DNA of 64,000 nucleotides from Nanohaloarchaea archaeon B1-Br10_U2g21 (GCA_001563915.1 LKMP01000002.1:1-64000), one strand, 5' to 3'; positions 60,068 through 64,000 are shown, counted from the first letter of the stretch. The notes: a model not told the origin generated them from the letters alone. Made by a program: numbers and translations.

Positions 60068-60439
60068 TCACAACTCCAGATTCTCTGCCGCCAAGTGACT
60101 TGAACCCCTAATATAAATTACAGGTCTGCCTTCATCTAAAATCTTATTTTTCAGCTCTCGATCATTCGTAGCGACTAAGAACTCATCCGAAAGATCGTAT
60201 ATAAGATCATCTACTATTCCTTCTCCTTTGGTTTCTAACACCTCTATGTCTTGACTATCCACTAATTTATGTACTAGACCCCCATAGCGTCCTGATTCTA
60301 TACTTTTTGCTTCTTCTAATACATCATCTAGTGTGTACAGCTCATTACCAGGAAATTTTTCGTCCATCTCTCGAAATATAGATACATTCATCTGGAAAGG
60401 CGCTACCAAAAAATTGGTATCAAGCAGGATTTTTCTCAT
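60068..60439 (-). CDS. PIN-domain protein (Fcf1/VapC9-like)
   Basis: 123 residues. LLDTNFLVAPFQ with Asp7 at the start, acid residues in LDDVLEEAKSI, and FLVATNDRELKNKI near 89-102 carrying the last acidic positions of a PIN nuclease. It takes the place occupied by the Fcf1-like PIN gene upstream of rpo7 in many archaea. No antitoxin gene is adjacent, so rRNA processing or an unknown RNase role is likelier than a toxin. Confidence 0.85.
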   Translation of the reverse strand: MRKILLDTNFLVAPFQMNVSIFREMDEKFPGNELYTLDDVLEEAKSIESGRYGGLVHKLVDSQDIEVLETKGEGIVDDLIYDLSDEFLVATNDRELKNKILDEGRPVIYIRGSSHLAAENLEL

Positions 60440-60500: not shown

Positions 60501-61517
60501 ATGGATTTTGACTACAAGGCCTCATGTCTTAGACGGATAGAACTAAATTCCGAATGTAAAATTGTTTCAAGCGGCCACAGACCTCAGACTGGTGATGTAG
60601 TAGCTGTAAAGATTACGGACGTTAATGATACTTACCGATCGCTTGATCTTGAGGGCGGCGAGCTCATTGAACTGAACGAAGGCGATGTAGTAGTAGGTGT
60701 TTTGGGTAATAGAGCAGGTGTAAAAGGATATGTTGGCGAAGTACCTTCCGACATTTCCGAAGGAGAAACGCTCTCTTTTCTCGGTGCTGGAGGCCTATTT
60801 GGAGAATTCAAAGGCGCTACCAAAGAGCTAGATGACCCATGTAGTGTAGAGTTCCTAGGTTACGTTGGTAAAACTGATGAAATACTTAACATGAAAGATT
60901 ATGGTATAGAGACATCAGATTCTTTGAGGGATGATGCTAGAGTATTTGCAGTGACTTCTTCTAGAATGGATGCTGGAAAAACAACTTTAACCGCTAAGTT
61001 GATAGAACAATTAAGTCAAGACTACAAGATTGGTTCTTTAAAACTTACAGGTTCTGCACGCGAAAGAGACAGGCTAAAAATGCTTGAATCTGGCTCTCAA
61101 ATATCTCTAGATTTTGTTGACGCCGGACTTCCTTCTACAGTCGATAATCCTCGCGACGTGGAAAGAGCCGCTAAAGGACTCATTAACGAGGCTTTTGATG
61201 AAGACATTGACTTTGTAGTTATAGAGTTCGGTGCAGGCCTTATCAGCAAGTACTGTGTGAAAGAAGTTTTAAGAGAGCTAGAAATTAAGAATAAAGTCTT
61301 TGGTATAGGCGCTGCTGCTCTTGATGTTGTAGGCGCATATGGTCTTGAAGACGTGTTAGACGATATTGGCTACGAGCTTGATTTTATTTCAGGACCTATA
61401 ACAGACACACATGTTGGTAAAGACACGATAGAAGACTACGTAGGTGTACCCGCATTAAATGCATTCGACAATGAAGACATGGAGCGTGCAGCAGAACTAG
61501 TTTCAGAGAGCTTCTAG
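60501..61517 (+). CDS. P-loop NTPase with N-terminal beta domain, opposite the ATP-grasp operon
   Basis: 338 residues. The first 125 form a beta-rich domain with repeated Gly turns (VVVGVLGNRAGVKGYVGEVP, FLGAGGLFGEFKGA). The C-terminal domain has Walker A SSRMDAGKTTLT from residue 153, then GSLKLTGSARERDRLKMLES and FVVIEFGAGLISKY, resembling the dethiobiotin-synthetase/MobB/DUF1611 class of P-loop proteins. Substrate unknown. TATTTATTTAAC near 60470 gives a leaderless start. Its stop and that of the opposing ATP-grasp gene share the same CTAG. Confidence 0.65.
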   Translation: MDFDYKASCLRRIELNSECKIVSSGHRPQTGDVVAVKITDVNDTYRSLDLEGGELIELNEGDVVVGVLGNRAGVKGYVGEVPSDISEGETLSFLGAGGLFGEFKGATKELDDPCSVEFLGYVGKTDEILNMKDYGIETSDSLRDDARVFAVTSSRMDAGKTTLTAKLIEQLSQDYKIGSLKLTGSARERDRLKMLESGSQISLDFVDAGLPSTVDNPRDVERAAKGLINEAFDEDIDFVVIEFGAGLISKYCVKEVLRELEIKNKVFGIGAAALDVVGAYGLEDVLDDIGYELDFISGPITDTHVGKDTIEDYVGVPALNAFDNEDMERAAELVSESF

Positions 61518-62383
61518 CGTTCTGCTGTACGGGACGCTATAAAATTCATTATTTTATCCGCCATATCCAGTCCTAATACTTCCTCTACTCCTTCCACACC
61601 TGGTGAAGCATTTATCTCTCCAATATAGAATCCTCCATCTTCGGATTCAAGTATATCTATTCCCGAGATATCAAGGCCACAAAGCCTCGAAGCCTTAATC
61701 GCAGCTTCTCTCATTTCTTCCGATGGTTCTACTTTTTCTCTTTGTCCTCCTGTTGAAATATTAGATCTAAACTCCTCATCTCCTACCCTTTTGTAAGAAT
61801 AAGTTTCCTCTCCAATCACTATTATCCTGATATCTTCCCCGGGATTCTCAATGTATTCTTGCAGACAAATTTCCTGCTCAAATAGCGTTAACGTATCAGT
61901 TATAGGGCCTATATCGCTCTCAGTCGATGCCCTCATTACTCCTTTCCCCCCATAACCTGAAATTATTTTAATGACTGCAGGATACCCTATTTTCTCAGCA
62001 GCTCTTATAGTCTCATCTGTAGAGAGTGTGTAGGCCGATTTAGGCACCGGCAGATTTGCTTCATGAAGAACCTTCATCATGTGGAACTTATTAGACGCTA
62101 TAGGAAGAGAATCTGAATCCATCTGAGTGTATACTCCATTATCCTGCAGTATTTCTGAGAAATGTTCTGCGTTCATCATATCTGCTCCTAGAAGTCTGAG
62201 ATATACTGCATCGAAATCGCACAGATTTATATCCCGATACTTCAACTTTGTGCCTTCCTCAGTCGAAACCGTTCTTATGCCTTCTAGAGGCACACCTAGC
62301 ACATTTTCAAAGTATTCTTTACCAGCTTCAATAAAATGATGGTGTTGCGCAGACTTTTCACCGTAAACTACTGCGCATTTCAT
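61514..62383 (-). CDS. RimK/LysX-family ATP-grasp ligase
   Basis: 289 residues of the carboxylate-amine ligase family that adds amino acids to peptides, proteins or cofactors. ATP-grasp features are intact: Lys139, the Gly-rich loop GYGGKGVM at 143-150, LQEYIENPGEDIRII at 174-188, RSNISTGG at 206-213, and metal ligands Asp243, Glu256 and Asn258 in IGEINASPGVEGVE. Third gene of the operon; its start overlaps the stop of the degenerate ATP-grasp gene by four bases. The substrate is probably set by its partners. Confidence 0.85.
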   Translation of the reverse strand: MKCAVVYGEKSAQHHHFIEAGKEYFENVLGVPLEGIRTVSTEEGTKLKYRDINLCDFDAVYLRLLGADMMNAEHFSEILQDNGVYTQMDSDSLPIASNKFHMMKVLHEANLPVPKSAYTLSTDETIRAAEKIGYPAVIKIISGYGGKGVMRASTESDIGPITDTLTLFEQEICLQEYIENPGEDIRIIVIGEETYSYKRVGDEEFRSNISTGGQREKVEPSEEMREAAIKASRLCGLDISGIDILESEDGGFYIGEINASPGVEGVEEVLGLDMADKIMNFIASRTAER

Positions 62384-63192
62384 TCACTATCACCCTTTAA
62401 TGTCTCCACAATTCTACCGTATACATTTTTTCCACTGTGCTTCTCAAACATTTCTAAATCAGGTCTTACATCCATATCCATTACTTTTTCTCCTTTCAAA
62501 CTTACTCTGCATATATCTGTACCTACTGCCTTAGCCGCTTTATCTACTACTTCTTTCTGAGTGTCCGAGAGACTATAGTAATTTCTTCCAGGCTCATCAC
62601 TCCATATTTCTCCTTCAAGCTTGAGCGAAATTTTCTCTCCATCGATATACAGTACATCAAAAAACTCGCCCTCAGGAATCTCCTGTAAAAGCATGAAGTC
62701 ATTCTCGGCATCAAGATCATCTAGGCCTTCTAATTCCTCAAAACTTTCTATTCTTTTAGTCTTTTCCAGCTTAAAATTCGAATACTTCTTCACAACTAAA
62801 GGCAGCTCCAAATCATTTTCCAGACCTGTTAAACCTCTTTTAGTAGCTATAGATGCTTGTTTAGGTGCTGGAATACTTTTTTCCTCCAGTACTTTTATCA
62901 TATAAGGCTTCTTCATTAGAATAAAGATAGAAGATGGATTTAGATTTACTGAAGCCTGTGTCTGAGTAAGCGTTTCAGTAAGGACTCTGATATAGTTGAA
63001 TGCCTCAGGCCTCGGATTTATGTATAGTATATGCTCAGAACCTATTTCCTCATCTCCTATGTATACTTCTGGTTTTTTCCCAGAATGAATGCTTACATCT
63101 GCAAGAGATTTTTTTTCTACTTCTTCAAAGTGTTTCTTGAAATCTTCAGTCTCCGATTCAAAGTTATTTGCTAGTATCAGTGTCTTCTCCAT
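62380..63192 (-). CDS. Divergent, probably non-catalytic ATP-grasp protein
   Basis: 270 residues from the ATG at 63192, chosen for GAGGGG seven bases upstream. The layout parallels its neighbour: N-terminal domain, LNPSSIFILMKKPYMIKVLE, PLVVKKYSNFK with the ATP Lys, LLQEIPEGEFFDVLYIDG, and KAVGTDICRVSLKG. But the Gly-rich loop is replaced (YSNFKLEKTKRI) and the metal pair Glu-x-Asn reads Asp241-x-Arg243. It looks like a substrate-binding or regulatory paralog of the active ligase. Confidence 0.7.
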   Translation of the reverse strand: MEKTLILANNFESETEDFKKHFEEVEKKSLADVSIHSGKKPEVYIGDEEIGSEHILYINPRPEAFNYIRVLTETLTQTQASVNLNPSSIFILMKKPYMIKVLEEKSIPAPKQASIATKRGLTGLENDLELPLVVKKYSNFKLEKTKRIESFEELEGLDDLDAENDFMLLQEIPEGEFFDVLYIDGEKISLKLEGEIWSDEPGRNYYSLSDTQKEVVDKAAKAVGTDICRVSLKGEKVMDMDVRPDLEMFEKHSGKNVYGRIVETLKGDSE

Positions 63193-63985
63193 TTTGTTCC
63201 CCCTCATCTGTTTTTTCTGGTTTCCAGAGCCTGTTAACTTTTTCTTCCCTGTTCCATTTTTCGATGTAACTATTTACCGGTTCAGGAAGCGCGCTCTTTA
63301 GTAATCGGCCCTGCCTCATTATCTTCTTTAGCCTGAGTTCCATGTTTTTACTGAGTTCGTCATAGAAACTAGAATCAGAGTAAATCAGATTATTTTGTAT
63401 TCTCCAGTATGCTGTAGTATCTTCTGGAGCTAGTACGACATAACCTCTCTTTCTACCTTCGAACTCAGCCATGGCTTCTCGCATTTCAGAGTCATCAGCA
63501 TAGTATACACCCCCCGATACTGTATCAGCGCTAGGATCTACTACAATTAACTCATCTCCCTCTACTCCCACGCATAAGCTATAATGAGCTTTTTCTGAAC
63601 CAGGGAATAGTACTGGCTTTGCGAAGTTAGGAATTATTAATGCTCCATTGTCAAACCACGTCTTTAGTTCATCAGACAATTTCCCTATTTTATCATATTC
63701 TACATATGCTCCTCTAACATCTCCTTCAGTTAATTCCTCTACAGCATCTATTAATTCATCAGGCATTGTTCCTTTACCAACTTCACTACCAGCAAGATCT
63801 CCAATTTCTTCCTGCTTATGAGCGAATCCAAATATATTCAATGCCATTTCAGCAGAAGCAGGCCCGCAATATGAAGGATGTTGCGCTGTAAAGTACCTTT
63901 TCATATCTTCAAGCGTTTTTATATCACTTCTAGTCCTCTTAAACTTGACATTAGAGTCCATAACCTGGCTATTTGGCGCAACCAT
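63164..63985 (-). CDS. C39/papain-like cysteine peptidase
   Basis: 273 residues. HPSYCGPASAEMALNIFG with nucleophile Cys40, AHYSLCVGVEGDELIVVDPS with His134 and Asp150: a complete Cys-His-Asp triad of the C39/papain-like type (like the stand-alone 'peptidase C39' proteins found next to RimK genes in bacteria). No signal peptide or transporter domain, so it acts inside the cell. A helical basic C-terminal region (MRQGRLLKSALPEPVNSYIE) follows. First gene of the operon; overlaps the next by 29 bases. Confidence 0.8.
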   Translation of the reverse strand: MVAPNSQVMDSNVKFKRTRSDIKTLEDMKRYFTAQHPSYCGPASAEMALNIFGFAHKQEEIGDLAGSEVGKGTMPDELIDAVEELTEGDVRGAYVEYDKIGKLSDELKTWFDNGALIIPNFAKPVLFPGSEKAHYSLCVGVEGDELIVVDPSADTVSGGVYYADDSEMREAMAEFEGRKRGYVVLAPEDTTAYWRIQNNLIYSDSSFYDELSKNMELRLKKIMRQGRLLKSALPEPVNSYIEKWNREEKVNRLWKPEKTDEGEQNGEDTDTSK

Positions 63986-64000
63986 TGTGTATCCGTCATT

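Follow-up and report, generated by a model that had tools for sequence, protein, structure and literature searches.

A conserved nanohaloarchaeal operon joining a RimK-family ligase and a degenerate partner to an MscS-C39 fusion protein: a candidate module for reversible protein tailing

Gene content of the operon

The window, meaning the whole stretch of DNA analysed (64,000 nucleotides), comprises bases 1-64000 of a 106,629-bp contig from the 816-kb genome of Nanohaloarchaea archaeon B1-Br10_U2g21. Its right edge cuts an operon in which eS6, aIF2gamma, a channel/C39 protein, a degenerate ATP-grasp protein and RimK are encoded in this order on one strand, with overlaps or gaps of 28 bp. The four ORFs of the initial annotation exist where it placed them: the 3' part of a gene for a fusion of MscS-like and Peptidase_C39_2 domains (63164..64000, minus strand), a degenerate RimK-like ATP-grasp protein or pseudo-ligase with a RimK fold by profile (62380..63207, minus strand; a second ATG near 63192 is a possible start), a RimK-family ATP-grasp ligase with intact active-site residues (61514..62383, minus strand), and a SIMIBI-type P-loop NTPase with an N-terminal beta domain (60501..61517, plus strand). 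The last is convergent with RimK, and the two genes meet at a CTAG in which, as described earlier, their stop codons overlap (61514-61516 and 61515-61517). A PIN_9 domain gene (60068..60439, minus strand) is a conserved neighbour that lies outside the system as counted here.

The peptidase gene had been given a start at 63985, which is wrong. The window edge interrupts the ORF, the ATG at 63985 encodes an internal Met within the MscS beta-domain, and the complete gene runs from contig position 64753 to 63164. In addition, a precursor peptide gene had been thought to lie perhaps to the right of 64000; aIF2gamma and eS6 stand there, and no such gene was found between the eS6 and PIN_9 genes, where every intergenic gap is 62 bp or less. 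In one relative (G006; L048:10426-13494), aIF2gamma is 1022 aa long and carries an intein-like insertion directly after the GHVDHGK motif.

The complete channel/C39 protein of 529 aa consists of five predicted transmembrane (TM) helices, an MscS beta-domain (PF00924, 38.1 bits, cut-off 20.2) and a papain-like C39_2 domain (32.9 bits with the full protein and 34.7 bits with the domain part, cut-off 24). The alpha-beta cage domain (PF21082) gave no match in this protein, and C39_2 occupies its place. According to the positive-inside rule, the N-terminus is predicted to be outside and the C-terminus inside, which puts the C39 side in the cytoplasm. The catalytic triad Cys40/His134/Asp150 described in the initial annotation is present and corresponds to C296/H390/D406 of the full protein, the predicted catalytic codons being 63866-63868 (Cys), 63584-63586 (His) and 63536-63538 (Asp) on the minus strand. 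An AlphaFold model of moderate quality (pLDDT 75, pTM 0.47) was compared with known structures by Foldseek: its first half matches MscS structures and its second half papain-fold enzymes, namely phytochelatin synthase Alr0975 (E 5e-7), PeiR and the ComA peptidase domain. Phytochelatin synthase with glutathione ranks first among the matches to the C39 domain.

An intact ligase beside a degenerate partner had also been proposed, and this is borne out by 14 checked ATP-grasp/RimK positions, all of which are kept in the ligase and two in the partner. These positions are invariant or nearly so across the RimK family members studied here, and the family of the degenerate partner retains one to four of them. 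The partner is RimK-derived (hhalign 99.85%, E 8e-31), and its relatives exceed the Pfam RimK cut-off. The ligase itself scores above the cut-off of the RimK subfamily (TIGR00768, 171.9 vs 143.4 bits) and below that of the S6-modifying RimK equivalog (PRK10446, 121 vs 331 bits). In a profile comparison it matches genuine RimK structures best (183 bits, vs 114 for the best match of LysX/ArgX type). In six relatives whose genomes lack the P-loop gene, a YheCD/TTL-like ATP-grasp gene is convergent to RimK (L046, L047, L049, L051, L052 and L054).

The P-loop NTPase, which the initial annotation counted among its four genes, is a lineage-specific, optional accessory of the clade: it is present in 12 of the 60 nearest genomes, always at the RimK end, and only three distant copies were found among 388 genomes. 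Its fold gives a generic SIMIBI match only (HypB, SRP GTPases, TM0796). The protein scores below the cut-off of the MobB Pfam model (17.9 vs 26.6 bits), and a distant relative scores below that of DUF1611 (20.5 vs 25 bits). Relatives of the gene in two distant lineages stand in an operon with AstE/AspA-type deacylases (L062:5225-7299 and L209:1063-3155), and a third copy (L211) adjoins phosphonate-pathway-like genes.

Conservation and candidate erasers in other archaea

The genes are not scattered in relatives, and the order that the initial annotation had asked about is conserved: channel/C39, degenerate ATP-grasp protein and RimK follow eS6 and aIF2gamma in the nanohaloarchaeal loci, the exceptions being loci cut by contig ends or with one gene not called. 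Of the 28 genomes searched within the order, 25 carry both channel/C39 and RimK, and the remaining three carry neither. The arrangement, conserved in about 25 nanohaloarchaeal genomes, is more than chance. Outside the order the fusion is patchy (12 of about 360 archaeal genomes); seven of these 12 fusions adjoin RimK and/or the degenerate partner, and channel-C39 genes located away from RimK occur in distant archaea at L101, L103, L105 and L106. A functional link to aIF2gamma/eS6 is tempting, given that the eIF2 factor CDC123 is of the ATP-grasp type and that RimK puts tails on a ribosomal protein. We rejected this link, as the adjacency is gone outside the nanohaloarchaeal order and is probably positional. 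Acidic tails of eS6 were likewise discounted, since the proteins of halophiles are acidic anyway.

The C39 triad is intact in 26 of 36 family members, including the window protein, and at all loci with the P-loop gene, GCS2 or a convergent retropepsin. The catalytic Cys is missing in the other ten (~28%), eight of which also lack the His; Asp and the fold are retained in the domains without Cys. Therefore, proteolysis cannot be the sole role of C39 across the family.

No RimB-family retropepsin (PF05618) was found in the window genome or in any searched genome of its order. The same search, the most informative on genomic context, showed that retropepsin-RimK operons are common in other archaea. 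In seven archaea without the channel fusion, a retropepsin stands beside a degenerate/active pair of the same family as that in the window (L174, L177, L181, L182, L187, L188 and L195), and the degenerate and RimK proteins encoded at L068 and L104, both channel-fusion loci, cluster with these retropepsin-linked pairs. A second type of degenerate RimK, which forms a separate branch, accompanies retropepsin and RimK in a further set (L156, L160, L163, L168, L171, L185, L186, L189, L191 and L194). Meanwhile, at four channel/C39-RimK loci from two families, a retropepsin gene is convergent at the 3' end of RimK, either overlapping it (L067 and L100) or lying up to about 130 bp away (L069 and L099). 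One genus (L163 and L171) has an operon of retropepsin, RimK, pseudo-RimK and a stand-alone MscS that stops just past the beta-domain and is thus the unfused equivalent of the first half of the window protein. Outside the order, retropepsin is found in eight of the 12 genomes with the fusion and in about 64 of the 348 without it (Fisher 5e-4, uncorrected for kinship).

A second candidate eraser is a MATCAP-family metallopeptidase with HExxH and EEG motifs, which is encoded at the locus in seven relatives. The catalytic Cys of C39 is lost in all seven, vs one of 16 other relatives with readable loci. Such a swap between a dead C39 and MATCAP is suggestive, with a Fisher value of 3e-5 that is uncorrected and rests on just two to four independent contrasts on the tree. 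MATCAP/TMCP enzymes are deglutamylases, which strip tubulin of glutamate chains and of residues at its C-terminus (PMC10499314). The MATCAP gene of the window genome lies elsewhere in the genome, unlinked to the cluster; this MATCAP/DUF1704 gene (L150:7666-8796; contig C13 of G000) ends a cluster of FtsZ, NusG, uL11, uL1, uL10 and P1, and MATCAP adjoins stalk-protein genes in several relatives as well (L151-L155). In eukaryotes MATCAP targets tubulin tails, and FtsZ is a homologue of tubulin. In one genome, a second RimK paralogue is encoded close to the channel/C39 locus, accompanied by genes for MATCAP and AstE/AspA (L061:2267-5356).

Comparison with known systems and alternative explanations

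In Pseudomonas fluorescens, RimB strips glutamate tails and stimulates RimK, and the two together yield free poly-alpha-glutamate chains of up to 28 residues (PMC11957791). The window cluster has a RimK-family ligase in common with RimK-RimB, and the same-family pair stands beside a RimB-family retropepsin in other archaea; unlike RimK-RimB, the cluster contains a pseudo-RimK and an MscS-C39 fusion, and its order has no retropepsin. bS6 is a bacterial protein, so the substrate of the archaeal cluster must differ from that of RimK-RimB. The rlo operon of Pseudomonas aeruginosa (RloA/RloB/RloC) combines an ATP-grasp protein, a membrane papain-fold protein and a retropepsin, and controls hypo-osmotic survival (PMC12239564). 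The likeness covers the ATP-grasp protein, the membrane protein with a papain-like fold, a peptidase and, putatively, the role in hypo-osmotic stress. However, RloB has seven TM helices and a periplasmic inactive transglutaminase, whereas the window protein joins MscS to a C39 domain predicted to be cytoplasmic; RloA is secreted, and the description of rlo consulted here mentions no pseudo-RimK (PMC12239564). The defining rlo pair, an inactive-transglutaminase membrane protein and a secreted retropepsin, is absent from the window cluster. Since the cluster belongs neither to RimB/RimK nor to rlo, we call it a variant working like them.

With MscS channels the window protein shares the TM helices and the beta-domain, the alpha-beta cage being swapped for C39_2. 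The tyrosination/glutamylation system of tubulin (TTL/TTLL with MATCAP/TMCP, PMC10499314) also relies on writers of the ATP-grasp type and on MATCAP-type enzymes that erase C-terminal tails, and related archaea have MATCAP relatives within or close to the locus; it differs in that no tubulin substrate is known for the archaeal cluster. Neither a link between RimK and a mechanosensitive channel (MscS) nor an MscS-C39 fusion was found in the literature searched.

Taking these data together, we favour, at a probability of roughly 0.5, a RimK/RimB/Rlo-like module that writes and erases alpha-glutamyl tails, or similar ones, and is linked to a mechanosensitive membrane protein. The proposal of the initial annotation that ligase and peptidase write and erase a tail thus survives in part: it gains from the retropepsin beside the same-family pair and from MATCAP at the loci of relatives, and it has to give way in that the peptidase is an MscS fusion, ten of 36 members have no catalytic Cys and the P-loop NTPase is not core. 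The strongest competitor, in which a small peptide is made and released, appears rather unlikely, though it draws on several observations. In that case the product of RimK, joined in relatives by GCS2 or further ligases, would be a soluble peptide (poly-glutamate, for instance, or a gamma-glutamyl/N-acyl peptide) acting as an osmolyte, a counter-ion or a thiol, which the channel-C39 protein would sense, cut or release on dilution. Four relatives (L053, L058, L059 and L063) have a GCS2 (glutamate-cysteine ligase family) gene at the locus, and in L165 one stands beside retropepsin-RimK; GCS2 is adjacent to RimK at L053:11571-12602, L058:7474-8481, L063:6563-7621 and L165:4103-5179; yet GCS2 was not found in the window genome, nor at most loci. 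The phytochelatin synthase match also fits such a peptide, but the papain-like fold is common to this enzyme and C39, which makes the match unspecific. The free chains produced by RimK and RimB (PMC11957791) and the deacylase genes adjoining the P-loop gene (L062 and L209) point the same way, while the retropepsin and MATCAP partners favour tails on peptides or proteins.

It is less probable again that C39 acts as a binding domain in sensing or gating without proteolysis, with RimK and its pseudo-partner modifying or regulating the channel itself. Degenerate C39-like domains of transporters are precedents for this, as is the inactive papain-fold membrane protein RloB, encoded in an operon with an ATP-grasp protein (PMC12239564); the frequent loss of Cys, usually with His, while the fold and Asp are retained agrees with it. 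The triad, however, is kept in most of the family, including the window protein and every locus with the P-loop gene, GCS2 or a convergent retropepsin. A cofactor ligase (MptN, CofF or LysX/ArgX type) with unrelated neighbours is very improbable. The MptN and LysX models strongly match the ligase at the family level, but the scores fall far below the equivalog cut-offs (MptN 156 vs 350, LysX 134 vs 275.6, CofF 86 vs 300), and membrane, pseudo-ligase and peptidase partners are conserved; a firm assignment to such a known pathway, which the initial annotation had named among the outcomes that would refute its proposal, was therefore rejected. C39 peptidases and ATP-grasp ligases are found in RiPP clusters (PMC8939145), and a RiPP/graspetide cluster or a fortuitous neighbourhood would be similarly far-fetched. 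The former was rejected because there is no room for a precursor gene and no ABC transporter, and against both stand the conserved order and the joint loss of the genes across an order.

A possible link between protein tailing and osmotic stress

For the writer-eraser of tails that we favour, we infer the substrate, the amino acid and the channel activity. RimK, judging from its family, would spend ATP on attaching amino acids, of which alpha-linked glutamate is the most likely, to a protein C-terminus or on joining them into free chains. The degenerate ATP-grasp protein would be a pseudo-enzyme that probably pairs with RimK for regulation or for holding the substrate, and the C39 domain at the end of the MscS-type channel may be an eraser or a reader of the tails. 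On dilution, membrane tension could alter the access to or activity of C39, and in turn tail length; alternatively, the tails may gate the channel. Elsewhere the eraser role would be taken by the RimB-like retropepsin of other archaea or by the MATCAP-type carboxypeptidase that some relatives carry. That the channel has a built-in tail-cutting domain, so that tension directly controls the removal or reading of RimK-written tails, is a tentative extension that we hold to be less likely than not. If true, it would amount to a mechano-regulated, reversible, polyglutamylation-like protein code for osmotic shock in archaea.

The content of the operon suggests that osmotic shock may be linked to reversible protein tailing in these tiny halophiles. 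Both RimK/RimB and rlo have been described in bacteria, and the osmotic phenotype of rlo is unexplained. Here, in very small archaeal genomes, RimK and a conserved dead partner are accompanied by swappable candidate erasers (retropepsin, C39 and MATCAP) and tied to an MscS-type channel. This combination suggests that the tailing module is old and widespread, and ties it to osmotic stress through a direct molecular link that is open to testing.
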